Shown piece after piece: positions 4,519-63,049 of a DNA stretch of 64,000 nucleotides. Made by a program: the position numbers and the translations under genes. The notes beneath the pieces were generated by a model, which did not search any database, was not told the origin of the DNA, and was given only the letters and a program-made list of their open reading frames with translations. Within the stretch, counting starts at the first letter, position 1. Every line of letters begins with the position of its first letter. The stretch comes from Arctopsyche grandis (lineage: Eukaryota; Arthropoda; Insecta; Trichoptera; Hydropsychidae), in the NCBI RefSeq assembly GCF_051622035.1, contig NC_135358.1, positions 9,961,001-10,025,000 of the forward strand. The letters run 5' to 3'.

Positions 4519-7500
4519 TCAATTTCGCAAGGTATGAAAAGCAATTCCTTCAGTTTGACCCCTACCGCCTATTCTCAGTCTTTTTGTATATGAACGGGAA
4601 TGCCACACCTGTAAGCATTTGACACATTATAATTTTTAAACAATCGACTCTGCAAAACACTATACAAATAAAACATTACCCTTATAGAATAGTCATCACA
4701 GACGGTGACGCACATGTGTGGATTGGTAGGGTTGAATGCGATTGCATTAACACAATCAGAATGCGGTAAAAGTGTAAGGCAGATTCCGTAATGTCTGTCC
4801 CATATATAAGCAGCACCTTCAGCACCACTGGAAAATACAAAAAATTTGATAAAAACATAATTTATACAATGGAAGAGTTGAGGATTTTGTAATACAAATG
4901 GATATTGGAAGGTTTGCTTATTAATCATTTATTACCTAGCTACATATTTATCAGAGACGTCTAGGAATATGAAAAAGCATCCAGAGTGTGATGTATAATC
5001 TTGTTGAGCTCTGAGCATTCTCCCGACGATTGTAAGTTTAGTCAGATCTATAACGTGAATATCAATGTGTGAAGCCAACGGAGGAGGCGCTAGCGGATTA
5101 TTAATTATATAGTCAGGAGGCCATGGACGACTGTTTACATAAAGATATCTGAAATATAAAATATTTTATAATACAGATTAAAATTGAAATAAACAAAATC
5201 GTCATTCTCCCCGCCTTACTTATTATCGGGAGACAGGGCCATGCCTATGATGTGGCCGCGCATGTCTATCACTTTGTCCGGCACGTCGAACATGTCTTTG
5301 ACGGCTTCAAAGTCTTCCCAATTTGGATGATCGCCTTCTTGACGTTCCCTCTCCCTGGCAAGTTCTCGCTTGCGAGCCGCGATACGTTCTTTTATCGATG
5401 GTCCGGGAGATAGTCGACGGGGAAATTCGATCTTGTCGATTTTTTTAAAACCTATACGATGCGGTGTATAAGTGTCGGCACCAATGGTGAATATAAGTAA
5501 CTTATTTTTTAAATCTTCATCTTGACTAGATCCACTCCAACTGCCCGAGTCGGTTTCGCTGGAACCCTATTTAATGGGATTTTTTTTTATTTAGTATGAG
5601 ATTGAGAAATGGTAGTTGACACTACTATAGTTTTGTTTGATTTTATTGTAGCATACAGTCTACATCAATGTTTTTACCAATTGTAAAACAAGTTAATGAA
5701 CTTTGGCCTTTGAAATGTTGATTTACAACTTTTATCATTGACTGATTCCAGGGTTGTGGAGTCGGTTAAAAATTTTCGACTCGGACTTTACTTTATGATT
5801 CGACTCCGACTCCGACTCGAACGATTTTAGTAAAATTAACTTTTATTGCCAACGAATAAAATTATTAGTAATGAAAATAATAGCGATTTTCAAAATATAA
5901 AGGAATTAAAAAAAGTCACTAAAAATTGACATGTAACCCAATTTATTGAATTATTGGTATTGAAATAAGTATAAATAAAAAGTAAGTGCATTCATTGTCT
6001 ACGTGTATGAATTTCATACATAAAACAAATCAATTCAATGAACAAAAGTATGAGATGGAGGAAACAATCGGTTTTGGCCAAAACACATCAAATATGATTA
6101 GTTAAACGATTTTATTTATAATGCAATTTAAATTCATGATTTTTAGAAGGAAATTATTAAATTTCAATTTATTAATGGATTTACTTCAATAAAAGTGGAG
6201 AAAAGGGGAAGAAAAATCGAACAAGAGTAAACTGCTACTTCCGGTTGACAGATGCTCACCAAATTGTATATATAAAATGATATTAAGCTTAACCTTCTAG
6301 ATATGAAATTTCAGTCCAATAAACCAAAAGATTTCTGAATAAAACATAAAAAACCTTGATTCTCTGAGTAAAAGTACTACTTCCGGTTGAGGTAAAAATA
6401 TTAGGGTATGAAATTTATATTTCTATTACATGTAAAAAAATTTCAATCTGGATTCAAAAACTTAAAAAAAAGAGGACACCTATAAGGGAAGGTACCACTT
6501 TCGGTCAACTTAAAAATTAATTAAAAATGAACGTCTTATCGATAATAATTTCAGTAACTGATAATAAGTTTCAGCTCGATAGGACGAACAGTATTCAAAA
6601 AATACACAGACATTTTTCTAGATAGTGAAAACGTGATCAGTGATCGATTCTGAGTTCGAATCAGTCAAAATCTCGAGTTCGAATTTTCGCATGATCACAA
6701 AACTTCATCTATTGTTACTACGTACATACATAGACAAAGTAAAAAATAATAAAAAAATTCAGTTAGTTGATTTTTTATGACTCCGACTCCAACTCTGCTT
6801 GAAATGCTCCAGCTCCACAGTCCCGATTAATTCTAAATGACTAATGAAACCGGTGGCCGAATCAAGTACATACCTCTTCTTCAGATTCATTTACTATAGC
6901 TGGTGATGTGTATTCCTTATCATAAAATATTGTCATTTGACTGTTAGTTCTTGGTCTAAAAATATCCTCATTTGGAAGATGTATAACATCTTCTTTATTA
7001 ATATCATCATTATTCCATTTGCAATCGCCAACCAATAAAGATCTTAAAAATGACACATAAATACATTCAGTGGCAAAAATTTATATAATCAGTAAACGTC
7101 AAACAAAGAACATACCTAACAGTACTAGCATTTGGATTGTAGAATCTATATAGTTGTGACAGTATTGGAGTATGTTCAGACTCGGGCTCTTGGGACGCTT
7201 TATTTATCCACAGGAAAGTGGCACTCGTCAAATGTCCGAGCCAGTGCAATTCACCAGACAGCAAATGGCTTTCGCTAATCCAACATCCGAATATATCATA
7301 CGGTTTATTTACAACTCTACACTGTAGCAGAAATTCATCTATAAAAAAATCAATCGATTCTTATATTGTGTTACAATCTAAAAACGATCAAGTGGACATC
7401 AAGAAACGTCAGATCACACACACACACACACACACACAGACGATATGTTTTGTTAATTGATCACAGCTGTGGTATTAAATTATCAACATGAATTGTTGGC

Positions 7501-10500
7501 TGTTATAATTGTGTATTATGTAAGGAGGATTTCAATTTTATCAAGCTCATACAAACTTTGTAAAGTGAACACTGCGATTTCACCGGAAGTGCTTAGGTTG
7601 GACCCAAAATGAACTCCGCTAACGAGCAACAAAGTATCGGACGAATTGAATTGCGTAAATTGGGTATACTTCCAACTGAACTCCTTCATATCATGTTGAT
7701 ATTTTAATGTACATGGATACGATGAGTTCCACACCTGAATAACATTACGATCATACAATTCACAAATAACATTACCAGCTTCGAGAGGACAAAACTTTAC
7801 TGTAAATGAATATGTTTTTTATATTTCATAGAGGTGTTTGAATATTGCACTCTCCACACTCGTAATTCGTGTAGTCTATTACCATGACTGTTCCGTCTTT
7901 GGATGTGGTTGCGAACATTGTTCCGTTGTGTGCAAACGACACGTGCAAAACTTGATTAGAGTGAGCGTCTATGCACTGGGTCAAGATTATTGGTATATCG
8001 CGCGATAGGCGCTTGTATTCTTCCAGCCATCCTCCAGATCCTGTAAAACAATTTGATTACTTTAAATTAAATTTGTGATTTTTTTTTTGAGGATACGGAC
8101 GTTTTTAAATTATGCACATTTTTATGAACACATTATTGCACAATTTCATGTATGTACATATATGTTACAGTCCCAGTGTTCACTCCGGTTCGTTCATGAA
8201 AATACTAGTTTATTCATACACGAACTGTTACATTGGTTTTCGTCAGGCCCGGCCCGAGTATATATGGCGTCTCTAGGCAGATTGGTTTAAATTTTTAAAC
8301 AATCAATTTCATAAAAGTTCTTGAAATTTTATGTTGAAGAAAAATATATTAAGACAAAAACAAAAAAAAATATTTAAAATTTTATTCAAAATAGGCGCTT
8401 TTTATGTATAAAAAAATAAAATACGGATAACTTTGTATAAATTCGGTAATGAAGACATTAATTTATATTCAACAATGAATTGAAGAATTTTATAGAGTGA
8501 CATTTCTTCTATCGTATATGATTGGTTAAGATATTTAATTTCGTGAAGCAAATCCATCCCTGATATATATGTATATATACTTACATATGTTACAGCGGTA
8601 TTTTATATAAAATACAATTCCAAATTACCATTTGTACTGACGAGAGTTTGCTGTTTTACAAGTTTATTTGTGAGTCGTTGATATTTGACAGTCAACTTCT
8701 TGCGTTCCTCGTAAATTATAATATTTTACAATCAGTATTGTGACTTCGAGTAAACAAATTAAGTTGAATATAGAATGTTTGGGTCTACCTCACGGGACCG
8801 AAAGTGAAAAGGTCGAAAAAGCAAATATCGGAAGGCAAAGATCGAAAAATCTTAAGTCGAAAGATCAAAAAAAAGGGGTGCATGGTAAACGGTACTACGT
8901 ACATATATTATATATAATATATATCAGTGGCATGCGGTGAAATTATCTCTCTTTTTGTGATACAGCCTTGTTTAATGTGCGCGCGCAGGATACGGGAGGA
9001 AAAGCCTGTTCCTCTTGTTCCTGTTGTATCCTGCTCGCGCAAATTAAGTGAGGATGTACGACGGGGGGAGAGAGACTTTAACCGCACGCCACTGATATGT
9101 ATACTAACCGTTTTTCATATGTATGCATGATAAACGAATATTTTTAACTTTTTCACGGTCACCCAGAATGTTTTATAAGTTTAAAGAAAGCCAAATTATT
9201 TTTACAATTTAATAATCGAAAAAAGAAAAATGGGGGCGTCTCGTAGCGCCCCCTGTCTATGGCGCCCTAGGCATATGCCTAGTCTGCTGCCCCTTTGAGC
9301 CGGCCCTGATTTTAGTTTAAGTGCTAACAGTCAAAAGCTTAAGCGTACATACACAGAAACGATTGAGAATATTTAAACCTACTATGTCTAATACCTTGTG
9401 CTTTGTTATTTTGTGTACACTATAGGGATATAGCACAGCTTGTACTATCCTAAATGAAGGTCGATGATCTCATCTATTACCCCATAAAACAAAAATCATA
9501 TTCGTTTTCCTGTAAGAGCATATAGAGCCGACCTTGCCTGAAATATCTTCGTTCACACAAGGGCAAAGACACAATTCGATTCGCTCCACATAACCAGCGG
9601 AATAGACTGGTGGTTAGCATATAATGCTTTGAACCTAATGGTCACGGGTTCAAATCCCACTGGTTTCTGCTGGCCAGACCTTGAATATGTGACTCTAGTT
9701 CGATCGTTTTCTATCAGAGTTTGCTGTTTTATCTGATTTTCATTGAAACTGTTCAAACAAATCGGCAACCTTACCCATTTTCTCGCAAAATCTTGAGTTT
9801 TCAACAACTCGAATTTCGCTAAATTGTGTAAAATGCTACAAATTTACAAATTTGACCATAGATGTCTCTTTGAATGTTAATTGATTTGTTTGCTTTGTAT
9901 AATGCTGATAATGCCTGTATCAAATGTTCAATGTTTCTGGCCAGGAAGTCGCATTGGGGTTACCTGTTAGGCCTTCCTAGTATAAATAAAAATAAATAAA
10001 TAAACAACCTCGAGTGTATGAACATACTAGTATGTTCATAAACGAAATGTACACTTGAAATGCAACAAATATAACTATTTGGATAATTTTCATAACTGTT
10101 TTCCTTACAATTTTATAGTTTAACGAATGACTTGCAAAGCTCTGGTAACTTTCAGTTTATTTTTTTAGTGTTCTGTATTTTCACCGAGACAATTTATTGC
10201 CGAATATGAAAGATTAAAAACAAATTTAATTAGTGTATCGTCAGTTGAACGGCATCAGTATTTCGAACGTTTGAAATTGTGCTCACGTAACGATGAAATA
10301 CACTAAAAATCTAGAACAAAACTTGATAAGAGACGTTAGTCCTATTTCGGGAACTGTTTTGATAATTTGCTATGAAAGGTTACCTCATAAGAAGTGTGAT
10401 AAATATTGTACAAGAGTAAAAAATGAGTAAGTGATTGTATACCGATTGGAGGCGAATGTGGAGTGTGGCCGAGATGGAAATCCCTGGTGAGGAGGTGCCG

Positions 10501-10644: not shown

Positions 10645-11124
10645 CGCGCCCCCCCAACCCCTCAGCCCTCAACCCCCACCCCCCAGCTCTTGCTCCTGAT
10701 CCCGCAACACCAAAACCATCACTAAACGGGGTTGTCATATACAAAAAGTTCAAAATCGCACTTTCATCAATCAAAATCAACAACTAAAAGAGCTTTTAAA
10801 AAGGCGTTCATCGATCTAAACAAAATAAAAAAAACCACTACTTGCATTTTTTAACAAATGAGACAGTGAATATTTCAAAATGAATTAAGAATCGCATGTA
10901 AAATAATTCTGAATGACGTAAAGATTTGGCCATGCCGGGATGATTTTAGCGCATGGCCACACTATCGCTGACATTTATCCAAGCAGCGATTTTTAAAGCC
11001 ATGTATGATCGTTTATTATTAAATAATAATTTATAATGTTATGCGAATTTATAAGCATTAAAAAGATGTAAATACAAAAAAATATGAGATTGAAAATTGC
11101 TTTATTACTTTATCTATGTGTGTA

Positions 11125-11225
11125 GTAACAACAGATGAAGTTTTGCGATCATGTGAAAATTCGAATTCGAAATTTTAACTGATTCGATCCAGAATCGATC
11201 ACTGATCCGTTTTCATAATCTAGTA
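11125..11225 (+). repeat. Dispersed block R1 (plus copy)
   Basis: Reads acagatgaagttttgcgatc, then aactgattcgatccagaatc, then gatcactgatc, matching the satellite unit and the blocks at 6600-6745 and 41895-42003. Confidence 0.7.
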
Positions 11226-11442
11226 AAAATGTTTGTTTGCGTTAGTATGTGTCTGTGTATTTTGAAGATTATTGGAACACTGTTAATTATATCAAACTGA
11301 GACCTAGTATCAGTTACTGAAATGTTTATCGTTGACATATATATCGGTGACCTGAAGTGGTAGCTCACCGTGTAGGTCTCCTCTTTTTTTCCTAAATCAT
11401 TCAACGGATTGGGCTGAAACTTCATACATTCTAAAAATTGTG

Positions 11443-13771: not shown

Positions 13772-16700
13772 TTAATAGACCCAATTGACTGGAACCCATT
13801 GATGATCAGTGGACAGCGAATCCAAGGCTTCTACTACTCTACGAAAGGTAGCATCAAAATCTTGATTCACAATAACAAGGTCTATGTATTTTTCATATGT
13901 ACGTTGTAAGCAAGCACTTTCTTCTAAAGTAGTTCTCACATCATCGTCCTGAAATCAAATCAAAATTTTGTTAAAAAAAATTTAAATAACACAAAAATTA
14001 AAAATTAAATTGAATACTTAGAATATTTAAATCAAAATGTACCTCGTAAAGTGACGCAAGTGATTCCAAAGTACGGGCTCTGCGAGAACTGAATCGTATA
14101 GAACTTTGTCTGTCAAACTGGTAAAACAAAGAAAACATGCCAAAATAAAAATTAAAAACATGCCATGAAAAACAAAATTTAAACACAGAGAAAAAAAAAT
14201 TAAGGTAATCATAAAAAATGTATGGAAATTAAATGACACAATTTACATGCTTTTAATTTTAGCTAAATGAAATACAATTATGTTTTAATTTTTATAAAAT
14301 GAGTCTAATAAAAAATGATGATTAAATTGCGTATTACACACAGCAGATCGGTTCTTATTTTTTTTTTTTTTTGCATATTTTTATAGAATCGATTTACCGT
14401 GTTATAGGGGGGTTACAAAAAGGCACAAAATGCAATTTCCAAAATCTCGAAATGTAAATGAATTAATTTCAAAGTAAATATAATCTAGTTGATTTACACA
14501 ATTTACATAGCATACATATAAATCTATATTATATTTTGGTCTCCCTCACGGGACCGAAAGTGAAACGCCCGAAAACGCAAATATCGGAAGGCAAAGATCG
14601 AAAATCGAAAGATCTTAAGTCGAAAGATCAAAAAAAAGGGTGCATGGTACTATGTATATATAATATATATGAGTGGAATGCGGTGAAATTATCTCTCTTT
14701 TTGTCATACAGCCTTGTTTAATGTGCGCGCGCAGAATACGGAAGGAAAAGCCTGTTCCTCTTGTTCCTGTTGTATCCTGCTCGCGCAAATTAAGTGAGTA
14801 TTTACGACGAGGGGAGGGACCTTTTTTTTGTTTTTCGACTTAAGATCTTTCGATTTTCGATCTTTGCCTTCCGATATTTGCGTTTTCGGGCGTTTCACTT
14901 TCGGTCCCGTGAGGTAGACCCATTATAATTATATTACAGCTAAATTCAAACATAAGAAATTAATAATTAATAATTTAATACAAAAAAATACTCAACAGCA
15001 CATGCAGTTGAAGTAAAATATATTTAAATATACCTGTAGATTTCGGCTAGATGAATAATTGAGATTCTTCAACTGTTCCATACCGGGTGCCGCTACGAAA
15101 ACGACATACGGAAGGAATGTAGGCGAATTGTACAACAATTTTAAAAATGCCGGAGAACAATCCAATATGCACATTTTACCTAAATAAAAAATCTAATTTA
15201 AAATTGACACATTACAATTGACTTACTTAGTTACTAATTAAAAAAAAAACCATACCACTTTCAATAACTGCTCGAATTGCATCAAAATGAGTACCATACA
15301 GGTGTCCGTTATGTTCGCCATATTCTAAGAATTCGCCAATTTTGATCTCCCTTTCCATATCTTCACGTTGTCTGAACCAATACGTGTGACCGTCAACTTC
15401 CAAAGGTCTCATAGGTCGTGAAGTATCTACGAAAATAGATAACGTCATGGAAAAACATAACACATAAGTACAAAACGAATCAAAGTGTTGAAATATGTCT
15501 TACGAGGAATTATCGATCCGAATTTGGAAGGATCACTATTGATCAGTCGCTTTTTGAGCGTACGGCGGCCAACACCTTCACAACCAATAAGAACCAGAGT
15601 TTTTCTATTGAAAGGAGGCATGCGGGTTACTTCTTCGTATAGAACCAAATCAGCACCATCGAAATCACTGGCACTTCGAGATTCATAAACAAACTTTCGC
15701 TTCTTTTTAGATATCTAAAATAAAACAAGGCGAATTAAAATTGTTCTAAATTTTGCAATATTTAAGATATATGTAGGCGTCAAAATAAACTTACCCAAGT
15801 ACCACAAATGCCAATTTTATGAACGAAATCAGCTTCCGGTGGTACGAACGCCTTACGACGTTCTTCCAATTCAGGCGATGGCACCAAACCGACAACATCA
15901 GGTGTATCTAACTTACAAGCTTGCCACCAATTAGGATCTTTTCTATCAGTTATCTAAATTAAAAATAGTTGAAATCAATATCGATATATACATATAATTC
16001 ATATATGTCATAGTATTATCATTTACCTGTAAAATATCGCCTCGGTTGAAAGGCAAACCAATTTGCCTACATGGTAATAGTGAATCACCCGATGGATTGT
16101 ATTCAAACAAAGTTCTCATATAGCACTGTAATACAAAAATAAATTAGCATTATCGCACTCATAGAATTATTTTTATATTATACACAGTTATTTGTATATA
16201 TTAGTCATTGCATTGCTATGCAGATAAAGATACGTCTTATAGTTATTATACCAATCGACAGGTAATTGAAGAGTTACAACGCCCACACAGCGTTACAATT
16301 GAAAACTCATCTTATTATATGAACGTAATTTATATCCGATTATTATAGTTACCGTCAATTTATTGATTTGATTAGGCGTTGGGTGGATGTGATTGTTTGG
16401 TCCGACTTTCAATGTTATATGGTCTCCGGCACGAGCGCATTCCGCTTTCAGTTGTTCCGGAGAACTGATGGGAAATCCGTTGACTTCCAATACGACGTCA
16501 CCGGGACCCAGAAGACCTTGTTGAGCCACAGCTCCGCCAGCCAGCACCCTGGCGACCACCAATTGCCCATGCTCATCTTCGCTCACCTGAAACATTCCAC
16601 ATGAATCATAACGGTTAATAGATTGCGCAATAATATAATGTCACCTCATAGTTTGGTACAATTGAGTAATTGAAAAACAGACCTAGTGACCCTTCTACCC

Positions 16701-19700
16701 ACAATCAATTAAATGTTGACGCACTGCGTAACGCAATGCATGCAAAATTTTGATAATTTTATAACCGCTAAATTTGGCAACTATCTCACGGTATAATATT
16801 CTGGAAAAGTTGTTTTTTTTTTCAATTTTCACCCAACTGTAACGCCAAGCTATTTGGCTAGTATTTATTAAAATAAATGCTTATAAATAATGAACGAAAC
16901 TTATTGATATTATTTAAAACCTAAGCCAGTTTGGTGGTTGCGTTAATGTTAAACATCAAGAGGTTCTAGAGTACGAGCCTTGGGTTGACATTGATTGAAA
17001 ATAATCTATTGCGAGTATTTCTATAGTACTGCTTGTCAGACTTGGATATTTGCGACTCCAAGTAGATCGTTTCCTATCAGAGTTTGCAAATTTATCTGAT
17101 TTAATTGTTGAAACGGTTCCTCAGCAAAAATAGGCGAAAATCATCATACCTGCTATTTGTCACCACTATTTGAATATGATTTCAAATTTATATATGTGCA
17201 AGTTCAATACCATAGGTGTCGCTCAATGGCAACCCGTAAAGGCATAGAGATCGCTAGGGGTTCTGAGATATCTCCCTCCCCCCCTCTTATTACACTTAAA
17301 ATATTTTCCAATTATAAGAGATATTTTTTATATTAAGTATATGTATACTGTGCATACAATTTTGATAGTACTAAATCAGAAGCGTTAATAAAAATATGAA
17401 GGATATACATAAAAAAAGAATATACTATGTTAGATCAGAATAAACTTCGCAACGATACATAGTTCATATCGCTAAAATGCAATACGTATTTTTTAAAACA
17501 GGAAAAATTTGAATAAACCACTTTGTATTAAAAAAATCTGTTTTTGAAGGTCACGAGCATGAGAAGATGGAAGCTAGAATGTTCGATTGAAAACTGATTT
17601 AGACTACTGAATGGAGATGACAGCCATGCTTAGTGCATTTTCGGAAATGCGTACGTGCGCGCATTGACTTTTGTTATAGTCTGCTATATTTTGAGAAAAC
17701 ATTCAAAGTAAAACGTAATTTGCACACCAAATTCAAGGCAACCCGGCAATGATTGTTCTAGTTATAGCCAATAAGTGTAAATATAGAGATTCTCGTAAAT
17801 GTTGTTTTTAGTAAAATAATGAACGCTTTCTTATTCAAAAAGTGATTCAACTTTCATGATGTCGTATTGGATTATTATAGAAAAAATATAATAAATCCTC
17901 AAAAATACTGGGGCCCTGTCCAGGTAAGCAATTCCCCCACGTGTGCGTAAAACCTTTAGTTAAGTTCTAAATACTAATAGAAATAATGTGATAAATTTAA
18001 TAGAAAGTTTGAAGTGTATGTATATTAGAAAATTTCTATATCTCATGAATCATGATAAATGACGAATGATCACACCCACTATGATTGCAAATTTTAAAAA
18101 TAAACAGTGTTGAGTTTGTAAACAAATAACAGTATCTACGACTATGTATTACATAAATGGTAATTAAAGAATATTCCGCTGTAAAAATAAATAGTTTGTT
18201 CTATTCGATTCTATCTAGTGTCTAATTGGAATTCTTACAGTGAGACCGAGAGGTTGGTCTGGTTGTTTTCTGATTCCGACAATCTTCACGGCGTCTTTGG
18301 CCGGCATTTCGCCGTCGTCTCCAACGAACACTGAATTGTCAATAGTGTCTTCAGGAGAGCCACCGCTTGGCAGACGCGTCACCCAAATCGCACCGATCTT
18401 GTCGTGCGTGTCTATCAAAGCCTGGAAAGAGAGAAACTGTTGAGCACATATTGGGTTAAGTGTGCGAGAGGGACGGCAGTATGATGCTTACTCTGAAATG
18501 CGGTTTGGAGAGTAGGATGGCGAGTTCAGCTTGTTCTATGGTGCGTATGTTGGTGCCGCGATACTCGCTCAGCTTCTTTATCAGCTGCAGATTGTTGAGG
18601 CAGTGCGGTCTGACGAGTTTCGGAGCGTCGGTGGGGTCGTGGGCCTCCTGCGAGTTGTATTTGACAGCCAATGACACTTTGTACCAAACAGTTTATAACC
18701 AACGGCCAACACAACAGACGCCAACGGCGCGAGTGACGCAAAGCACCACGCCCCCTAACTGGCGCGCCCGGAACTTAACAATACTGTACACAGCCATATA
18801 CTGGCCGTGTCCCAATTTTTATCTTTTGTCAAAATGAGGTTTTCATGATATAAATCAATCGTTTATATTAATCATACAAAATTTTGTTCATAAAATTTTC
18901 ATAAAAAGTCTATAATCACATATAAAACCGAGAGAAATCTAATGGGCAATAAAATGAATAGTCATTTATTAATTAGATAACTGTACCGATTATATTATGC
19001 AAGCCCACTCATATGGAAAAGGGATTTAATAATTTGGCTGATAGACATTAATATGTTGTACTCGGGTCTACCTCACGGGACCGAAAGTGAAACGCCCGGA
19101 AACGTAAATATCGCAGATAAAAAAGAGGGTCTTTCCCCATGTCGTACATACTCACTTAATTTGCGCGAGCAGGATACAACAGGAACAAGAAGAACATTCT
19201 TTTCCTCCCGTATTCTGCGCGCGCACATTAAACAAGGCTGTATGACAAAAAGAGAGATAATTTCACCGCATGCCACTCATATATATTATATATACATAGT
19301 ACCATGCACCCTTTTTTTTTTGATCTTTCAACTTAAGATCTTTCGATTTTCGATCTTTGCCTTCCGATATTTGCGTTTTCGGGCGTTTTACTTTCGGTCC
19401 CGTGAGGTAGACCCGTTGTACTCATAGATTAAATTAAAAACTTTATATATGACTACGGGTAAACGGATTATTGCGCAAGTTGCGATCGCACGCACGACAA
19501 TCGTTGCAACAAAAAACGCGAATATGGAATATCTGGCACTCGAGATATCATTAGTACAATATTTCGCGTGTGTAGTAGCTTTCAATTGATGGAGTTTTTG
19601 GGTCCCAGATGATCCGTGATCGAGATTTTAGTGACGTGCGCGAGATCGCTTTTTGCGGAATAATCACCGAACCATGAGTACTACACTCACAGTTCAGCTG

Positions 19701-22239: not shown

Positions 22240-22600
22240 TTGTCCCGAGAGTTGTTTTCCGGCGGCGGTTGATGATTTTCCGGAAAATGTGCCGATCGAG
22301 TGTGCTGAGGGGTGTCCAATGGGTAGAAAGTCAGTGACACATGTTACGTGGCACGCGACGAGGGGGCGTGTGGCACGCGGCGAGACGTCGGTGTCCCGGG
22401 TGGGAGTGGGCGTCGCGACGCTCGCTTACCGACGTTTCGAGTTGCCATATCGGAAAATTACGAGAAAAGCTCTGCGCGGAGCTTTCGCGCACAACTTTTC
22501 CGCGAAAGCTCCGCGTCGATTCCGCGAAGCTCTCGCGTCATGGCCGCTTATTTTTCGTGGAATGTGATGCGTGTTTGCCAATTTGATGTTGCTCAGACAC
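22140..22600 (-). promoter_or_regulatory. CpG-rich region, probable varicose promoter and first exon
   Basis: A CpG-rich island in otherwise AT-rich DNA. It has a CRE-like gacgtcac and an ETS-like ccggaag near 22175-22195, and a 15-bp inverted repeat cgcggagctttcgcg / cgcgaaagctccgcg around an 11-base loop near 22475-22515. The position, just upstream of the tentative varicose start, fits a promoter. The open frames on the plus strand are composition artefacts. Confidence 0.5.
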
Positions 22601-22695
22601 ACTAAAATAATACCTGATGTGTTGAAAAGTAAAATATCAGAGTTGGTATTGTGCAAAAAGTATATTATTCATTTAATATTTTTTTAATTTATCTA

Positions 22696-24565
22696 TATAC
22701 GTATTAACAATAGATGAAGTTTTGTGATCATGCAAAACTTCGAACTCGAGATTTTGACTGATTCGAACTCGGAATCGATCACTGATCAAAAAAGATGCGG
22801 TGCAAACGATCGACAAGCGCCAGACAGACTTAACCACAGATTAACGATACGTGTACCTTATGCGTGCGCACTGCTCGCACTTACACTAAGCAAAATCTAC
22901 TATGATAAACACAAACAAACAATAAATCTATTTGTTATAGTCCAAGTGTTACTCTGGTTCGTTCATGAACATACCACTTTGTTCATACACGTATATACGT
23001 ATTAACAATAGATGAAGTTTTGTGATCATGCAAAACATCGAACTCGAGATTTTGACTGATTCGAACTCGGAATCGATCACTGATCACGTTTTCATGATCT
23101 AGAAAAAAAAATATGCGGTGCAAACGATCGGCAAGCGCCAGACAGACTTAACCACAGATTAACGATACGTGTACCTTATGCGTGCGCACTGCTCGCACTT
23201 ACACTAAGCAAAATCTACTATGATAAACACAAACAAACAATAAATCTATTTGTTATAGTCCAAGTGTTACTCTGGTTCGTTCATGAACATACCACTTTGT
23301 TCATACACGTATATACGTATTAACAATAGATGAAGTTTTGTGATCATGCAAAACATCGAACTCGAGATTTTGACTGATTCGAACTCGGAATCGATCACTG
23401 ATCATGTTTTCATGATCTAGAAAAAAACGATGCGGTGCAAACGATCGACAAGCGCCAGACAGACTGAACCACAGATTAACGATACGTGTACCTTATGCGT
23501 GCGCACTGCTCGCACTTACACTAAGCAAAATCTACTATGATAAACACAAACAAACAATAAATCTATTTGTTACAGTCCAAGTGTTACTCTGGTTCGTTCA
23601 TGAACATACCACTTTTTTCATACACGTATATACGTATTAACAATAGATGAAGTTTTGTGATCATGCAAAACTTCGAACTCGAGATTTTGACTGATTCGAA
23701 CTCGGAATCGATCACTGATCACGTTTTCATGATCTAGAAAAAAACGGTGCGGTGCAAACGATCGACAAGCGCCAGACAGACTTAACCACAGATTAACGAT
23801 ACGTGTACCTTATGCGTGCGCACTATTCGCACTTACACTAAGCAAAATCTACTATGATAAACACAAACAAACAATAAATCTATTTGTTACAGTCCAAGTG
23901 TTACTCTGGTTCGTTCATGAACATACCACTTTGTTCATACACGTATATACGTATTAACAATAGATGAAGTTTTGTGATCAAGCGAAACTTCGAACTCGAG
24001 ATTTTGACTGATTCGAATTCGGAATCGATCACTGATCACGTTTTCATGATCTAGAAAAAAAAAGATGCGGTGCAAACGATCGACAAGCGCCAGACAGACT
24101 TAGCCACAGATTAACGATACGTGTACCTTATGCGTGCGCACTGCTCGCACTTACACTAAGCAAAATCTACTATGATAAACACAAACAAACAATAAATCTA
24201 TTTGTTATAGTCCAAGTGTTACTCTGGTTCGTTCATGGACATACCACTTTGTTCATACACGTATATACGTATTAACAATAGATGAAGTTTTGTGATCAAG
24301 CGAAACTTCGAACTCGAGATTTTGACTGATTCGAATTCGGAATCGATCACTGATCACGTTTTCATGATCTAGAAAAAAACGATGCGGTGCAAACGATCCA
24401 AAACGAAGACTTAGCCAAAGATTAACGATACGTGTACCTTATGCGTGCGCACTGCTCCCACTTACACTAAGCAAAATCTACTATGATAAACACAAACAAA
24501 CAATAAATCTATTTGTTACAGTCCAAGTCCAAGAACATACTAGTTTGTTCATACACGTATTATTG
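22696..24565 (+). repeat. Satellite of about 317 bp, six tandem units
   Basis: The block gtattaacaatagatgaag recurs at about 22701, 22999, 23317, 23634, 23951 and 24269, giving spacings of 298, 318, 317, 317 and 318. Units are nearly identical; the first lacks about 20 bp after its R1 block and the last is degraded at its end. Each unit holds, in order, R1 (gatgaagttttgtgatc ... gatcactgatc), a gatgcggtgcaaacgatcg block that is also the left arm of the fold-back element at 25985, and a gttatagtccaagtgttac ... gttcatgaacatacc block also seen at 8165, 10020, 25910, 55645 and 56010. Confidence 0.95.
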
Positions 24566-24862
24566 GTTTTAGTTTAAGTATTAACGGTCAAAAAAAGACT
24601 TCCATCGGGTATCGCATGAAACTTTTAATTGCTAAAGTTTTTGAGCTGTTAAATCATTTAAGATGTCAAAATGTGAAATAGGAAATCCTATGGAAACCAA
24701 ATCACAGCCTTGCTATAAATCCTGTTTCCGCTGATTTTTAAAATATTACCACCCAGGGTTCACATACATATGTATATTAGAGGATAAAGAATGGAGGATG
24801 GGACAAGCGATTGTGAATACTTAATGTTATAATATATATAAAAACGGACTGTCGCTAAATAT

Positions 24863-25010
24863 ATTTGTATATTTGTATATTTGTATATTTGTATATTTGT
24901 ATATTTGTATATTTGTATATTTGTATATTTGTATATTTGTATATTTGTATATTTGTATATTTGTATATTTGTATATTTGTATATTTGTATATTTGTATAT
25001 TTGTATATAT
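24863..25010. repeat. 8-bp microsatellite (tatatttg)n
   Basis: About 18 uninterrupted copies of tatatttg. The two overlapping reading frames of repeated YICIFV are translation artefacts. Confidence 0.97.
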
Positions 25011-25034
25011 GTGACGGACGATCAACCGTCAACC

Positions 25035-25340
25035 AGCATTTTTTTCATATTTTTCATATTTTTCAGTTTTTTCATATTTTTCAGTTTTTTTCAGGTTTTT
25101 TCAGTTTTTTTAATTTTTTTCATAATTTTCATTTTTTTCATAATTTTCATTTTTTTCATTTTTTCAGTTTTTTAATTTTTTTCATTTTTTCAGTTTTTTA
25201 ATTTTTTTCATTTTTTCATTTTTTTAATTTTTTTCATTTTTTCAGTTTTTTCATTTTTTTCATTTTTTTCATTTTTTCAGTTTTTTCAGTTTTTTCATTT
25301 TTTTCATTTTTTTCATTTTTTCAGTTTTTTCATTTTTTTC
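25035..25340 (+). repeat. T-rich tract of ttttttcatt/ttttttcagt units
   Basis: About 300 bp of imperfect 9-12 base units made of T runs broken by cat or cag. It abuts the octamer microsatellite on the left and the GC-rich minisatellite on the right. Confidence 0.9.
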
Positions 25341-25690
25341 ATTGCCGGGGGCGCTGGCGGCGCCGAAGGCGTCAGCGGCGCTGGGGGCGAAGCCCCCGGG
25401 GTGCCGAAGGCATCGGGGCGCTGGGGGCGCCGGAGGCGTCGGCGGCGCTGGGGGCGAAGCCCCCGGGATGCCGAAGGCATCGGGGACGCTGGGGGCGAAG
25501 CCCCCGGGGTGCCGAAGGCATCGGGGGGGCTGGGGGCGCCGGAGGCGTCGGCGGCGCTGGGGGCGAAGCCCCCGGGGTGCCGAAGGCATCGGGGGTGCTG
25601 GGGGCGTCGGCGGCGCTGGGGCCGAAGGCCCCGGAGCGACGGAGGCATCGGGGGCAAAGGCGTCAGGAGGTCGGCGATGCACAAAACGTA
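25341..25690. repeat. GC-rich minisatellite of hairpin units
   Basis: Repeats of gggggcgaagcccccggg, tgccgaaggcatcgggg and ggcgccggaggcgtcggcgg, starting at about 25384, 25449, 25490 and 25558. Each unit contains GCGAAGC or GCCGAAGGC, self-complementary around a GAA loop. All six frames are open over long stretches because the composition lacks A and T; the Pro/Ala- and Gly-rich frames are not taken as genes. Confidence 0.9.
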
Positions 25691-25984
25691 ATTCGTAATT
25701 CGTAATCACTTCGTAATTCGTGCATCAATTTCTTTCCGAAACCAGTCGATTCAATATCTTTAACTTTATTTTTATTCGAGTTTCAATTCCTTTTCGAAAC
25801 CACCCGTTGAAATCAACGGGTCCAACACTAGTACTTAATAGTTTCTGCATTAACAAACTAGTTCGTTTGTTGATTTGTTCTTTTGTGTAAAAAAATAACT
25901 GGCCTGATTGGTTAATGTATGAACAAACTAGTATGTTCATGAACGAACGAAATTTACATTTGAATCGTAACATACACAGGTATA

Positions 25985-26365
25985 CATACGATGCGGTGCA
26001 AACGGTCGACAAGCGCCAGACAGACTGAACCACAGATTAACGTCACGTGTACCTTATGCGTGCTCACTGCTCGCACTTTCACTAAGCGAAATCTACCCGA
26101 AGTCCCAACATACCTACCCTGTATACGTTCTGTGCTTCTGATACTTTAGTTCCAAATTTTGCCTTATTAAACTCGCCAGAAAGATCCAAACTCAATTTTA
26201 ATAATTACCATTTTAATAATTGCATATGTGCACATCGAAATGTTACTCGTCATCTGTGCAATCTATCATTCGTGAAGTCGAGAATTGCGTTTAAAGCAGC
26301 CATCCAGTTAATATGTGGTTCAGTCTGTCTGGTGCTTGTCGATCGTTTGCACCAAACCCAGAAAA
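25985..26365. mobile_element. Fold-back element, family F1, copy 1
   Basis: The left arm is gatgcggtgcaaacggtcg, then gccagacagactgaacc. The right arm is its inverse (ggttcagtctgtctggtgc, cgtttgcaccaaaccc). The interior (gcaatctatcattcgtgaag, gttactcgtcatctgtgc) matches the element at 62631-63019. No protein frame. Confidence 0.8.
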
Positions 26366-26559
26366 AAAGTGTGTGTGTAATTTTGGGGATTTTTGAACAT
26401 CGTTAGTTCTAGCAAACTAAAACTTAGTATTGGTTACTAAAATTCTTATCGACACGACATACATTTTTTTCGACCTCTTAAACATGTGTGCTCTTCACGA
26501 AAAAATTCAAGTATAATTCTTGTATTAATTAATGTGATCAAAATAAAAAAAATACTAAT

Positions 26560-27115
26560 TTTAATAAAAAAAATAAGTGGGATTTTTTCCTCTTAAAAAA
26601 GTAAAAAATGTTGTGAACACGATTCTTTCCACACCCCTGAACGTAGCAAGTTGTAAATTTATATTTGTATTCTTTATGTACCCACTAACGTAACAGGTTT
26701 TGGTCAGAATTCCTAAACCGGAAGTTGTATTTTTTTAAAACAATATTTCATTATTTTATTTTGTCCTTTTAAATTATTTTTATTTTCTTGATATTTAATG
26801 CGTATAATAACTATAGTGATTTTAAGTCAAAAAAAAAAAAAGTTTGAACAAAATCCGACATCCTGAGGTAGAACTGTTTATTTTGTCATTTTGTTATTTT
26901 GTCATTTGAAGTAGAACTTATGTCATTTTGACATCCTGAAGTAGAATTTTTGTAAGCTTTCCTACATTTGCGCTCAATTTGTATCGAAAATACTTTCATA
27001 ACCGTTACGTGTGAACGTGTATGTATGTTTAATTATTGAATTTTGTTTTGTGACCTTCTTATATTCCTCAAATGCATAGACAAAGTCATGGGTTGGTCAT
27101 ATCCGAATTTTTTTT
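26560..27115 (+). repeat. Fragment related to the hAT-like element at 50725-51760
   Basis: Blocks shared in order with 50990-51330: gtgggattttttcc, acgattctttccac, aggttttggtc, ttcctacatttg, gtgtgaacgtgtatgtatg, cttatattcctcaaa and ggttggtca. No terminal repeats are seen here, so it is a partial copy. Confidence 0.7.
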
Positions 27116-27139: not shown

Positions 27140-27410
27140 GGCTCATCCACAGCATGGCTCGGTGGTTATGTTGATACTAAAGCACTGAGAGGTCGCCGGG
27201 TTCAATCCCGTGAGCTGACCTCGATTATAATCTATGTAAATGCTGCTGGTCAGACTTGGATATTTGTGACTCCAAGTCGATCGTTTCGTATCAGAGTTTG
27301 ACAATTTATCTGATTTCATTGTTGAAGTGGTTCCTCCATGAAATTCCTCCTGCAAAAACCATCCTATGTCACCGTCATTTGAATGACATAGATGTCTCGC
27401 TAATTTTTAT
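27140..27410 (+). repeat. tRNA-derived SINE, copy 4
   Basis: The head includes tggctcggtggttatg and B box gccgggttcaatcccgtg near 27195-27212. The core is gactccaagtcgatcgtttc, atcagagtttgac and tctgatttcattgttgaag. Body to agatgtctcgctaa near 27400. Confidence 0.85.
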
Positions 27411-28289: not shown

Positions 28290-28480
28290 ACATACATACA
28301 TATGTACCATAGAGGTGCCAAATACAGTGTAGGTGACCAATTTGGTGAGGAACCGTTTCATTAATAAAATCAGATAAATTGGAAAACTCTGATCGAGGAA
28401 ACGATCGACCTGGAGTCATATATAATACATACATACAAATGTATAAACAAGGTCTAGCCAGCAACACCGACTCAGGGCTC
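28290..28480 (-). repeat. tRNA-derived SINE, copy 5 (truncated)
   Basis: Inverse of the SINE core: gaggaaccgtttcat, aatcagataaattgg, cgatcgacctggagtca, and the gctggctagacc junction near 28455. The head is missing. Confidence 0.75.
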
Positions 28481-28972: not shown

Positions 28973-29542
28973 CCCGTTTACCATACTATGTGAGTATATT
29001 TATATATTTAATTGAATTAGTTTATTTTCAATATTGCCGATAACAATCAACTTAAGCATAATTTTAATATATTATAATACATACATATATGAGTAGATTT
29101 TTGCGATCGACTGAATAGGTATATGTATGTACATACATAATTATGTTATATAAGCATTCAATCGAATCAGAGAGGTTTGTAGATATTTATTGAATTATAC
29201 TCGTTAATGTTCAACAACAAGTCAACATTGGAAAGTGGAGAACGAGAATAACTTGTTTTCAATCTAACAATTACTGATAACGACTCGGCTGTGGCGCGTC
29301 ATTTAGTTCCAATCGCATCTTCACAGTGGAATAACGTCAACAAAAACAGCGGACTACATAAATAAAATACAGTTAACCTATCAGTAACTCAACATCAATT
29401 TATAGTGAGTTTTAGTTAGATCAAAATCATTTCAATATCTTATCTACTTCTTGACTGCGTAAATCCACTGACTTATCTATGTACTGCACTATGTAAATCT
29501 AATAAATTTTGTATATACATTACAGAAACGCTCCATTATACC
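28973..29542 (+). promoter_or_regulatory. Urate oxidase upstream region with a likely 5' UTR intron
   Basis: A donor (ttata/gtgagt near 29403) and an acceptor (tatacattacag ending 29524) bracket a short intron just before the ATG context, suggesting a non-coding first exon ending near 29403. Two ttatct (GATA-type) sites lie inside it. No TATA box is convincing. This is inference from splice motifs only. Confidence 0.4.
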
Positions 29543-30826
29543 ATGTCGGAACAATTTCAACTCGTCGACTATAACTATGGTAAGAGTTCAGTGAAATTGT
29601 TGCACTTCAAGAAAGATGGAGCTCGCCACAGCATCAGAGAATTAGAGGTTCATACTAGTCTAAAACTAAATAGCATAAAAGACTATTTACACGGTGATAA
29701 TGGAGACATTGTTGCCACGGACACACAGAAGAACACTGTGTACGTGCTCGCCAAGAAGCATGGCGTCAGAACACCAGAGGAGTTTGGAATGCTATTATGC
29801 AGACACTTCTTGGTAACGTACCCACATGTGTTAGATGTCAATGTCAAGGTGGAAGTGTATCCATGGGAGAGATATGTGAAAAATGGAAAATCGCATAATC
29901 ACGCATTTATCTTCTCACCCACAGCCCTGAGGACTGCTTATGTTTCGCAAAGTCAACAAGGTAATTATGCAATGACAGATATGTATTATAAATGTTAAAT
30001 GTTTTTTTGCTCATGGTATCAACAAAACGAACGAAAACTGCTAAAAACATGGTGCATATGTTAGTTTTCCAACGCGTAAACGAGCTCCCATTGACAATGA
30101 TTTGTTGTTAAGGTTGATTAGATACAAATGACCTTCACTCGGGTCAGTGGTTTCTAAACAATATTAATAATATAACTTATATGTATGTATTTACATAAGT
30201 ATATTTTGCAAATTTATTATCAATGTCACGTAGTCACAATGTTTTTCACAATATATTAATTATATATATTACAATAAGAGTGTAAAGCTCGCTGATGTAT
30301 ATATTGTCTAGTATGAGTATGCATCGTCAAAATTATCTAGTAATAGTGTACACGGAAGACACAATTTTACCCTAACCTAAAATCCTAGGTAGCATGGATG
30401 TAGTTGTAAAATTTATATAGTAGATTGAATCTTGTTAATTATTGTCTATTTAGTATCAATCCAACAATAAATTGGTTATTTGAATACAATCGGTTCTATT
30501 CTTGAGTATAAAATTCAATGAAAGAGAAACGTCGAAACCAGCTTATCTGTCAAACTTTGATCAGCTGTCTTTGATCAGATAATTTACTGGTGCACATCGG
30601 CAAGTCCATGAATTTGCTAGCCAGTTTATACATTATCTAGTATAAACTATATCTGTATAAAGAGTATCTGTGAAATTTCAGCGTCGTAGCTTAAGCTAAA
30701 AATCAAAGCCGGTGTACTTACTAGACAATGTATACATCTGCAAGACCCGATGCTTTTACTGTAGTATATATATACATGTATATGTATATATATATACTAC
30801 AGTATATATATATACATATACATGTA

Positions 30827-30906
<80 letters not shown>

Positions 30907-39400: not shown

Positions 39401-42400
39401 AAGATTTATTATTTGTCTTTTTTGCTATTCGATTTACGGCGAAATCGTACGATGTTTCGAACGTCGTGTTTAATGTAGGCTTTTAATAAATGATCCGTTG
39501 GGTCATAGACTTACTGTTGGGTTGAATTCGAATACACGTGTTAGTTGTATTATTTATTGACTTTATAATGTATAATTTTTCACTGTTTTTCAAAATTTTG
39601 ACCTTCCAACAAGGTGTCTATTCCCTTCTGGTCTAAACACAGTTTCCCTAAATACAACTTGTTTTAGAACGTCGACTTTAAATAGTCTTTAGTTTGAAAT
39701 GTATGTATAAAATGTATCATTAACGTTAAAAATTGTAAATAGGTTTATGAACTTTTTTCCTTTTATGCTGTACACCTTTATTAAAATAAAATAATACATA
39801 ATAATATATATGTATGAATACATATAGTAACGAACAATAATAAGTGGTAACATGATCAGTAGATCAGTAACTATTATAATAGACGTAATATGTATTGTGA
39901 ACATGATTTATTATCATTAAAAAGCATTTCAAAATCAAAAAATCTAAATATTTTTGAGGTAATATGAATATAACATGATTTGAATTTTCTAGAAGCCTAA
40001 TCCATTACATTTGCAACAGCTGTGATAGTTTCTGAAATTTCCCGGGAAAAACTTCCCGGAAACTCGAATTTTTCACCACATCGATTCTGATATTTTGGAA
40101 TTTGAATTTTATATCTTAAGAGGGCTGTACACCCGAAACCTTAATTTTGTTGCCGTTCCTTTCTTCGATATATATATTGAGTGAATGCGACAATATATAT
40201 CAATATATATATTGAGTGAATGCGACAGATGCGCTTCGACCAGATAATACGTATTTTAAATCGACAAAATCGAGGTTTTGTATTCTCCTATTTTCTCCTC
40301 CAAAACTGGACCAATTTTAACAAAAAAATTCATCATCGGTATGAGAAAGATATTTTCTGTGCAACCATGCGCGTATTTTTTTTTAAATCGACCGTTAAAT
40401 AAGCACGCTGGACTCTTTTCGTGGGTGTAAAAAAGAGGCGATTTTATAGATGTTTGGCGGCTCCTAGCTCCAAAAAAAATAACTAATCAAAAAAAAAAAA
40501 AAAACGATAGATGCATCCTAATGGTGGATATCCATAGCATATTAAAAAATAATTCCTCTAGTACTATAATTGAGGATGGCAGAAGTGTAATACGTTTGTA
40601 TGGACAAGGCGCTGGTGTCCAGCCCTCTTAATAAGAGTATTAACATAATCTAAATAAATTGCATTTAATATTATTGTATTTGATACTCGATAAGATTATG
40701 TATTACTTATTCTCAAGCATAAATCTGGCGAATGTTGATAATTTTACTATAAATCTCGGGAATTGAAAAACACTCCCTAATTAATTTATATAATGCACAT
40801 ATCTAGAGACGTGGACTCTGAAAACCAAGATGATCAGCCGCATTGAAGCTTTTGAGATGTGGGTCTATAGGCTTATGCTGAAGATTCCGTGGACCAAAAA
40901 GATATCAAACGAAGCTGTCCTCGGCATGATGGGGAGAGGCAGGGAACTTGTTTCTGTCATCAAGCGGAGAAAGATGGAGTACCTCGGACACATGATACGG
41001 GGTCCAAAATACGAATTTCTCCGTTTGATAACCATGGGAAAAATAGAAGGAGAAAAATGGATTGGCAGGAAAAAGTTATCTTGGCTTCGAAACATGCGCA
41101 TGTGGACCGATATGAGCGCCGAAGAGCTGTTCCGAGCCGCTGAAGACCGATGCGGATATATTCAAATAATCGACGAGGTGGTCGCCAACGTCCGGATGCG
41201 GACAAGGCATTAACAAGAAGAAGAAGACATTACATAATTTATAATACGAGTTTTTATACAACTCGATAAACGTTAGGACTTTCTTGAAATTTTGACCTTT
41301 ATAAAATGTTATGCAAACATTTTAAAGCTTCGAAGTTCGAATATTTGGTAACCCTAGTACGTTTGTACAATATGTAGGGGAAAAAAATCACGTAAAGTTC
41401 ATTCACCAGATAATCTGATACGCGTGATTTATATAATACAAAACACAATATAAATGAATTAATATACGATCAAAATATATCAACGTTTTATAGCGCATCC
41501 CTGGAGTGCTCATAGCATGCGAGGAGGGTCGTAGTAATTGGACGGCAAACATTTGGGATTCGATACATGCTTAAGAGCAAGTTATCCCCCTTATGGGACA
41601 TATTACCTATGTATTTACTACATACATACATATGTATATATCACACTCGCAGACAAATACATACGAAATAATTAATTTATAACGAAAAAATTGAATAAAA
41701 TACCGAAAATGGTGAAATGAAAGTTGATATTTTATTATATGTATGTGAGGATGTACATTTAAAAATTCGTTGTCTTCGTTATCTTGAATTTTTTCTTTAG
41801 TGAACATCATTGGAATTAGCAATAGTTTTATTTACTACGGTCATTTTCAAACAAACTTTCAATATTTTTACTTTATCTATGTATGTAGTAACAATAGTAA
41901 CAAGTAGTAACAAGTTTTGTGATCATGCGAAAATTCGAACTCGAGATTTTGACTGATTCGAACTTAGAATCGATTACTGATCACGATCTTTTCATGATCT
42001 AGTTTTATATGCCTCTTCTATGTTTTAACGAAATACTGCGGACTGACTATAAATCGCCCGGTCAATTAATTATGATGAGGACCGTAGAGACCAAACCCGG
42101 ACCTTTAGAAAATTATTATTCTGGACCTTATAGAGTGGAGGGAGGGGGGGGGGGGGAGGGGACTTATTCGGAAATAAAATATTCATATTTTCGACTTTTT
42201 TAATCTATATTTTTCGCATGATGCCATTACAGGTTGCCCCTGAGCGATACATTTGTTAATACATAAATTTTTGAAATCATATTCAAATAGTGGGGACATA
42301 GTGGTAGGATGGTTTTTGCCAAATTTATGAGGAACCGTTTCAACAGTGAAATCAGATAAACTGGCAGACTCTGGTAGGAAACGATCAATTTGGAGTCACA

Positions 42401-50439: not shown

Positions 50440-50625
50440 GCGAATTTGAGATGCTGTAAGCTCAAATTTTGCTAGAAATAGAACAGGATTTAGAGAAATA
50501 GAACCGTTTCAATGAAATCAGATAAATCGACAAACTCTGCTAGGAAACAATCGACTTTGGGGTCGCATATCCAAAGCCTGGGCCAGGGATTTAACCCGTG
50601 ACAACACAATTGACAGCATTACATG
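50440..50625 (-). repeat. tRNA-derived SINE, copy 8
   Basis: Inverse core: agaaccgtttcaatg, aaatcagataaatcg, aaactctgctaggaaac, gactttggggtcgcat. The decayed head with ttaacccgtgac is near 50590. Confidence 0.75.
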
Positions 50626-55224: not shown

Positions 55225-58200
55225 TTATTTAACATTTGGTTTGGTGATGTTTTGAATGCTTTCTCCGGAAGTTGTCAAAATATCACTTTTGAAAAGTTGT
55301 GATGGTGGCGTATTGGATTTACTTAATACCGATTCATAAAATGTAATTTTCTTTTCATTTTTAGTTGCTTTTACATCTAGTTCGCTATTTTCTGATATAC
55401 TATGAGATGTAGATTTCCCCGGAATATTTTCTGTAATAGTAGAATTATCCTCCAATGAGGAACGAAATTCACTACCTACAACTTTTCGCCATTCTAGAAA
55501 TATTCTAGGATTACTTGGACCCCAGTTTTCCGCCGGCTTAATCGCATTTTTCAAACGCTGCAAGAAATTTCCTTAATTATATATGTTACAGATAAAGTAT
55601 GTATACAATTCGTGATTTATGCATTTATTAATGTACAATATGTTACAGTCTAAGTGTAAATTTCGTTTGTTCATAAACAAATTTATTTATATATGAACCA
55701 ATCTGACCAGTGAACGCAAAATAACAAATTGAAAAACAAACTGTATAGTTTTTTCATGCACGAACTATTAAGCATAAGTTTTAAGTATTCTCGATCGTTC
55801 GTCCCACCTACATATACATATGTACATATGCTTACTCTGGGTTGCAATATTTTAATAAACGGGAATTATAGCTACGTCGTAATATGATTTCCATAGGATT
55901 TCCATTTTTCCATTCCTTTTGTTAGCTCAAAAGTTTCATGCGACATCTGGCGAGTCTATTTGAAGATAGCTTTTGATTTTTAACACTTAAATTAAAATCA
56001 ATAGTTCGTGTATGAACCAACTAGCATGTTAATGAACGAGCCAGAGTGAACACTTGGACTGCACATTGTACATGTAGGTACATGAGATAAGTTTCTCAGT
56101 ATACACGGGAAAATGTATAGAAATACATATTTACTAATCACTAGTGCTCTCATAGGGTTGCCAGGCGTGGACGAAACTACCGACAATCCATCGTGAGCTT
56201 TAACTAAAACGTATAGCTAATTTATACGTATGTACATATATTGAGTAGAGAGAGTATATATTGACGAGAACAGCGTATTTTTTAAATTCGAAACAGAGAA
56301 TTAGTAAGAAAATGTATATGTATATAAATAACTGAACTGTTTTACCTGAAGTAGAGATCCTTTTTCTTTGAATATTGTATATATCATAAATAGTGGAATA
56401 AATATGATTGACATTCCACTAATACACCAACCTAATATGATTGTCCACTTTGGATATAATTCCCCTTTATATTTTAATTCCTCATTCCATACTATTGTCG
56501 CAATAAATAAAAACTGAAATTTTATTATAAATGTGTGAATACAAAAAATTTGATATAAACATAGAATTATTCGATAACTCACAATAAGAACTGTAGGAAT
56601 CATATATTTCCAACAGAATGGCCATATCCAGTGTATCTTTTGTCCACGCATGAATTCTATATCAATTACGAATTTTTTGGTGCCATATATCCATCCGACA
56701 ATTAGAACTTCTATGAAACAAATTACAATAACAGGTACATTAGCCGCGTATGAATCCATCAATTGAATACAATACATCCCACCCTTAAAATGAAAAAAAA
56801 AATGTACAGATAAAAATTTTAAAAAATTGCAATATATATATTATGCACCTATAAATAGGTACGTATTATTTACATATACTAACATTAGTGGTTAAAATAA
56901 CCCCTACAAAGAATGTAATAAGGCAAGCGTACAAGGCTGTTTTTGATTTATTTGTTAAGTGATCCGGATATGCATCGCATACTGCGGATACAATTGTTTC
57001 GAGTTGAACAAACTAAAACAATTACTTAAAATCAAAAAATGTGTAGCCTAATATGACATAAATTTTACGAATATGCTCAAATATGCTTAACTCGAAAGAG
57101 TTTTACGTAGCTTCTTGAAAACTTAAAAAGTTATGATGAATGGTAAGAGAATGTAGGAAAAGGAATCGGATGTGATCATTGGACAGATGAATTAAATAAA
57201 ATTAATTTATTGAATACAACATGAATAGTGAAAGGTTGACTGAACCGATTTATATTATACAGGGTGGTCGACAAGAAACGGAAATTTTTGTAATGAGTAA
57301 TACTTGGCGTCCGAAGAAAGTAGGAACCTGTGGTGATAATCCTTTAGCTTCATTCTCTATGCTATTTAATATTCATGCCAGTAATTTTGAATATAACCAT
57401 AATTTCGAAGACGAGGAATCAACAGAGAAAATGTATGGTTCCAGCAAAATCAGACAAGAGGTCTACATATGTACTGACCATACAGCCAGAACTTCACTGG
57501 CTGTAGTTCGAGCGTTGTTCCCTATTGGCTAATTTCACCTGACCTTTCCACGTGTGATTTTTATATGTGAAGTAATCTTAAAGCACACAGCACACGTGCA
57601 CGAAGGAAAGCCATTCACACTGGAAGAAGCGAATATCACAATAAAAAATCAAACTGAACAAATGGAAACATTTGAAAGAGTGGAGGCGAATTTCCGAAAA
57701 TGGCTCCAAACGTGTGTTCGTAAAAATGGTCATCATATGATGAATACAATTTTTTGTGAATAATATAAATAAATGAATGGAATACGGTTTAATTTATAAC
57801 TATCCGGTTCTTATGAACCAACCTGTATAATTTAATTTATTTGTACTAACGACGGTGTCAATTCCAATGAAGAACAACATTAAAAAGAAAAGGATTCCCC
57901 ATAAGTGCTTCAATGGCAACAATGTTATAGCAGCTGGATATGTGATGAACACTAGAGCTGGTCCTGCTTCTATGACTTCTTCAACAGAAACACCTGTTCT
58001 CTCAGACATGAATCCAATGACAGAAAATACAGCGAAGCCTGCGAAGATACCAGCCGCAAAATTTAACGTCGACAAAACTAAAGTTTCACTGAAATTTTTA
58101 CAAATAAATTAGAAGTAACATCAAATATTCAAAACAAATCAGTGCAAAGCTTACATCAGGTTATTGTGCGAGAATTTGTTATAACTAGCCATATTGACTA

Positions 58201-62552: not shown

Positions 62553-62630
62553 CTGAAATAACAAAAAATATATATTTTTTAGATTTTCGTATGTATATGA
62601 GATTTTTCATATTTAAAGCGTTCTTATAAA

Positions 62631-63019
62631 GGGATGCGGTGCATCCGCTCTAAAATCGCCAGACAGATTAACGGACGGCCGCTTTAAATGCAATTCTCGC
62701 CTTCTCGAATGATAGATTGCACATCAGATGACGGGTAACCTTTCGATGTGCACAAAATAAATTATTAAAATGGTAATTATAAAAATTGAGTTGGATCTTT
62801 CAGGCGAGTTTAATAAGGCAAGATTCGATAAGATAACTCGCCTGAAAGATCCAACTCAATTTTAATAATTACATCTTGCACATCAATGCACATCGAAAGG
62901 TTACCCGTCATCTGATGTGCAATCTATCATTCGAGAAAACGAGAATTACGTTTAAAGCTGCCGTTCTGTTAATCTGTCGTTCGTTCATCTGGCGATTTTA
63001 GAGCGGATGCACCAAACCC
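62631..63019. mobile_element. Fold-back element, family F1, copy 2 (full hairpin)
   Basis: The left end is gggatgcggtgcatccgctc, then taaaatcgccagacagatta. The right end is the inverse (ggcgattttagagcggatgc, accaaaccc). Inner arms also pair (gagttggatctttcaggcga with its inverse), so nearly the whole 389 bp folds on itself around a small loop. The flanking octamers cttataaa and tttataaa match at 7 of 8. Confidence 0.88.
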
Positions 63020-63049
63020 TTTATAAAGTATTGTATATTAATTGATTTG

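Follow-up and report, generated by a model that had tools for sequence, protein, structure and literature searches.

A six-unit tandem array probably amplified across nested transposon insertions

A 317-bp unit made of pieces of three dispersed repeats, R1, the fold-back element F1, and the inverted-repeat element E3, occurs in tandem in the 64-kb stretch of DNA analysed here (the window). We consider it likely that this array arose when 317 bp spanning nested transposon insertions were amplified in tandem and in place. The first-pass annotation had proposed that nested insertions were amplified as one unit, and this proposal is supported by the junctions between F1 and R1, by a 9-bp duplication, by two copies of R1 that lack F1, and by the continuity of unit 6 with E3.

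The array and its component repeats

TRF detected a period of 317 bp with 5.5 copies and 97% matches (22788-24528), the only such array within the 64-kb window. Cutting at CGTATTAAC yielded six units of 298, 318, 317, 317, 318, and 303 bp, in agreement with the earlier description of six units that each contain R1, the F1 left arm, and a third block. The order R1 piece, F1 arm, 30-bp linker, and E3 end was observed in all six units, which lie head to tail with high pairwise identity (92.6-99.0%), as do the tandem units of satellite DNA. With gap columns left out, units 1-5 were 96.5-99.0% identical to each other and 92.6-94.6% identical to unit 6, which carries substitutions of its own in addition to gaps of 15 and 6 bp. 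Unit 1 is short by about 20 bp at the joint between R1 and F1. Six copies at one locus do not establish satellite scale. No function is claimed for the array, which is most plausibly neutral DNA and would represent a satellite-like array in its earliest stage.

Table 1. Positions of the array, of its component repeats, and of related elements in the window.
Feature	Position	Strand	Remarks
Tandem array, six units	22700..24571	+	Unit starts: 22700, 22998, 23316, 23633, 23950, 24268
R1 5' part, unit 1	22679..22788	+	Left end enters R1 upstream sequence TTTATCTAT, common to dispersed R1
F1 left arm, unit 1	22794..22900	+	Recurs in every unit
Linker from F1 arm to E3, unit 1	22901..22930	+	30 bp, edges by eye
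E3 terminal repeat, unit 1	22931..22997	+	Ends in the E3/R1 unit junction
Left AGAAAAAAA copy, R1 to F1	23736..23744	+	Read in unit 4
E3, one part	24512..24824	-	Continuous with unit 6
About 1 kb inside E3	24825..25822	.	Mostly tandem repeats: (TATATTTG)n, T-rich, and GC-rich; not present in the 55.6-kb E3
E3, other part	25823..25975	-	With the other terminal repeat
F1 with second left arm and only right end	25985..26359	+	Inverted arms 25995-26041, 26307-26353
Right AGAAAAAAA copy	26360..26368	+	Target-site duplication (9 bp) from F1 insertion into R1
R1 3' part	26369..26468	+	Right of F1
Dispersed R1 without F1	6471..6745	-	Empty site
Dispersed R1 without F1	11096..11384	+	Empty site
Dispersed R1, 5' part only	41866..42003	+	
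E3, both ends present	55630..56073	+	About 440 bp; no array
E3 interrupted by other insertions	8151..10079	-	Strand relative to the 55.6-kb copy
F1-like fold-back element	62632..63020	+	Flanked by TTATAAAG at 62624-62631 and 63021-63028

Single blocks of the unit were used as queries against the window from which positions 22600-26600 had been removed. The R1 block matched 6722-6617 (minus strand), 11122-11223, and 41910-42002 (E 1e-15 to 1e-24), thereby recovering the three separate R1 sites previously placed at 6600, 11125, and 41895. The E3 block matched 56061-56008 (minus strand) and 8167-8221 (E about 1e-6 each) and, weakly, 10057-10014 (minus strand; E 0.013). The F1 block gave weak matches at 62634-62674 (E 0.014) and 63014-62948 (E 0.0024), and a 34-bp query containing the linker had no match elsewhere in the window outside 22600-26600. 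When the background was resampled 20 times with an order-1 Markov model, none of the four blocks produced a match at E 0.05. BLAST recovered the same dispersed sites, including 10079-10014 and 55638-55679. Within the right flank of the array (24600-26600), the F1 block matched 25991-26096 (E 4e-28) and 26354-26278 (E 1e-11), and the E3 block matched 25963-25916 (E 1.5e-6). The F1 copy reported at 25985 is thus present, as is its relative reported near 62631, the latter by a weak match (E 0.0024 at best). Since R1, F1, and E3 were each found separately, the unit is a composite monomer to which two or more distinct transposable elements contribute.

R1 measures about 300 bp elsewhere; the copies at 6 and 11 kb align over 335 columns (71%), and the piece present in the unit is 107 bp long. 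R1 is presumed from its dispersal to be a transposon. F1 has inverted arms of 47 bp (94%) at 25995 and 26307, as expected for a fold-back element, and its relative at 62.6 kb is nearly palindromic, with arms of 78, 38, and 35 bp. Target-site duplications in the range of 8-10 bp were found for both, AGAAAAAAA on the two sides of F1 and, by eye, TTATAAAG at 62.6 kb, the lengths being uncertain since both sequences are A/T-rich; AGAAAAAAA, which is A-rich, has been lost from unit 1. No transposase was found among the 10 reading frames of the window that were examined. Another fold-back-like family is present at 8769-9073, 14521-14935, and 19049-19413, with copies 85-86% identical; at 14.5 kb the element aligns to its reverse complement with 70% identity.

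The third block had been reported at 8165, 10020, 55645, and 56010. Matches do occur at these four sites; the notion of four independent blocks was discarded, as the sites are the two ends of each of two E3 elements (8165 with 10020, and 55645 with 56010). In the former element, a short piece of the E3 body (9307-9339, E 6e-6) lies in the right order with other sequence between. The segment 8143-8229 matches the right end of the 55.6-kb E3 (80%, E 1e-16), and 8145-8225 matches its left end in the opposite orientation (73%, E 1.5e-8). The E3 copy at the array has a 29-nt end pair, 93% complementary, at 24527 and 25916. In the 55.6-kb copy, the sole pair detected by the inverted-repeat search is internal, indicating that the ends of this copy have diverged. 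E3 is short and bounded by terminal inverted repeats, as are MITEs. Inspection of three copies by eye revealed no consistent target-site duplication for E3; TA target sites, as used by Tc1/mariner-like elements, were considered as a possibility.

The window contains other repeats and genes. A dispersed repeat at 9667-9754, 17029-17119, 27243-27321, 28339-28424, 42332-42419, and 50501-50593 includes a stretch that resembles, by eye, tRNA promoter boxes (TGGTTAGC...GGTTCAAATCC) and is perhaps a tRNA-derived SINE. No tRNA gene was found in the window. Two sequences of about 530 bp, 40116-40631 and 43800-44333, are repeated in direct orientation with 88% identity. Uricase exons lie to the right of the array (29420-32087), and exons of a sodium:neurotransmitter symporter, which look tandemly duplicated, are present at 56301-62578. 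Pfam families were assigned to seven of the 10 reading frames, one of them (WD40) below the curated cut-off, and serve as gene context only.

The insertion nest at the edges of the array

The left edge of R1 in unit 1, at about 22679, leads into the R1 upstream sequence common to the copies at 6, 11, and 41 kb. At the opposite edge, unit 6 runs on into E3, to position 25975. One match pairs 24527-24824 with 56037-55781 (65%, 298 columns, E 2e-21), and a second pairs 25824-25974 with 55782-55639 (72%, E 2.5e-19). These two parts are colinear with the 55.6-kb E3 and are separated by about 1 kb consisting mostly of simple tandem repeats, (TATATTTG)19 among them, together with a ACCCGTTGATTTCAACGGGT hairpin. 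This intervening stretch could reflect a further insertion or the expansion of a repeat. Unit 6 is continuous with the body of E3, and E3 thus adjoins F1.

To the right of the F1 end (26359), the second copy of AGAAAAAAA is followed by the 3' part of R1. This part was identified by a match between 26390-26468 and 6601-6523 (77%, E 1.4e-11) and by the R1 profile, which matched 26343-26465 (E 6e-13) although that stretch was absent from the profile. Alignment of both flanks with the R1 copies lacking F1 (6 and 11 kb) reconstitutes one R1 copy plus a 9-bp duplication around F1. The presence of AGAAAAAAA and of the R1 3' part beyond the right end of F1 therefore indicates that F1 lies inside one R1 copy. 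The nesting of F1 in R1 is established by its junctions; E3 would in turn have inserted into F1. The second F1 left arm (25985), located to the right of E3, is not predicted by a simple insertion of E3 into F1. Its left flank differs from that of the arm present in the array, indicating that the array's F1 arm is the partner of the F1 right end. The second arm could result from insertion of one F1 into another, one of the two right ends then being lost, or from an arm duplication such as occurs in fold-back elements.

An arm duplication is also what might be expected if a single modular fold-back element, comparable to Tetris or Galileo, contained the array as an internal domain of tandem repeats and carried it along when moving. 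F1 does combine inverted arms with an 8-9 bp duplication, and Tetris arms hold tandem repeats of about 220 bp that also occur in longer arrays (PMC4079207). We nevertheless regard this origin as improbable: only about one third of the unit is F1, both R1 and E3 are found on their own at other sites, and no array accompanies the F1-like element at 62.6 kb. Moreover, R1 resumes on the far side of F1, which identifies R1 as a target rather than as cargo.

A dispersed single-copy R1-F1-E3 ancestor, which the first-pass annotation had suggested seeking, was not found in the window. Such an ancestor would instead be represented by the two edges of the array itself.

Unit junctions and expansion of the array

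All five junctions between units are identical (CATACACGTATATACGTATTAAC), E3 continuing up to CGTAT and R1 starting from TATATACG, with a 3-bp overlap (TAT). The identity of the five junctions, including the overlap, points to one founding event, although an overlap of 3 bp is short and could be due to chance. In units 2-6 the R1 alignments overrun the junction by about 20 bp because the E3 end that they enter loosely resembles the R1 upstream sequence; the exact joining point was accordingly set with units 1 and 6 as references. An 8-bp match common to R1 and E3, ACGTATTA, was rejected as the joining point since, by eye, both stretches are retained at the junction and the overlap is confined to TAT.

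Substitutions shared among the units were compared with the dispersed copies. Of the 87 R1 columns that were uniform across the units, three differed from a state on which all dispersed copies with a base at that position agreed, as predicted for one founder. The four other E3 ends compared have the same state as unit 6 at two E3 positions where units 1-5 have changed. Units 5 and 6 agree with each other at positions in R1 and F1. Conflicting signals come from other positions: one F1 state is retained in unit 3 only, although polarity in F1 is weak as only one outgroup is available, and numerous changes are private to unit 6. These conflicts could stem from conversion. Unit 6 is not simply ancestral, as its own substitutions and gaps contradict that reading.

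These observations are best explained by the following sequence of events. The fold-back element F1 would have entered R1, generating the 9-bp duplication AGAAAAAAA, and E3 would have landed beside F1, most likely inside it. A repair or replication error may then have joined E3 subterminal sequence to R1 via TAT, thereby duplicating the stretch formed by the R1 5' part, the F1 left arm, the linker, and the E3 end. Unequal exchange or conversion would have raised the copy number to six, presumably recently. The generation of duplications from transposons via repair at short matches has been proposed (PMC9659126, PMC12628747).

Identical junctions would likewise be obtained if the copies had been made on a circle, by rolling-circle replication or as extrachromosomal DNA, and then re-inserted. 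The array, however, passes at each edge into the source element expected there, so that re-insertion would have been needed exactly at the source, and we give this scheme a similarly small chance. Much less credible still is the reverse direction, in which the satellite came first and an array containing all three blocks released the copies of R1, F1, and E3 as fragments. This origin was rejected: the dispersed R1 and E3 copies exceed the unit, and their additional sequence is common to each other or to the flanks of the locus. Furthermore, no match with two adjoining blocks was found in the window outside 22600-26600, and E3 and F1 possess inverted ends of their own. The direction from transposon debris to array put forward on first pass is therefore retained. 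Finally, short arrays can be misassembled, but an artefact in copy number or order is very hard to reconcile with units that have their own substitutions and with edges that differ as expected.

Relation to composite satellites and other known systems

Local amplification across nested insertions is a route already proposed in print, and the locus is a worked example of that route rather than a new kind of array. The locus shows the insertion nest together with the point of joining and some of the direction of change, making the proposed route testable at one locus and datable in relatives. Our literature search, which covered few subscription papers and is no proof of absence, retrieved in the text available no locus in which the source nest and the array were read together. 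Three exact patterns had no match each in a collection of viral contigs that may omit the window's own records. It is a tentative and rather doubtful suggestion that the locus is a rare stage-by-stage record of the birth of a composite satellite in a gene-bearing region, with the source nest, the founding junction, and the first copies preserved side by side, and that the 317-bp unit may have gone on to larger arrays elsewhere in the genome.

According to a 2025 review (PMC12628747), nests of old insertions may become tandem and give rise to patchwork monomers; this scenario is proposed, and the origin of satellites with such monomers is called an open question. The array resembles the 'TE graveyard' composite satellite DNA of that review, in which the monomer consists of short pieces of several transposable elements from a tandemised insertion nest. 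In contrast to those satellites, which are assignable to no single element and are located in heterochromatin, the source nest is present here at the array edges, in a gene-bearing window.

Xenopus miDNA4 also associates tandem repeats with a MITE, short matches being invoked for changes in copy number (PMC12628747, PMC9659126). The miDNA4 repeats are located inside one MITE, whereas E3 contributes only its end to the unit. As in Tetris TIR-220, a fold-back element producing 8-10 bp duplications supplies tandem-repeat material; the Tetris repeats are internal to the arms of one element, whereas the unit described here spans three repeats and crosses element ends (PMC4079207). The maize CRM1TR and CRM4TR arrays are proposed to have started by illegitimate recombination in transposon sequence, for which the authors suggest nested insertions (PMC3648361). 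Their unit derives from one retrotransposon family and short direct repeats were undetected at the joint, whereas the present unit combines three repeats and displays a 3-bp overlap.
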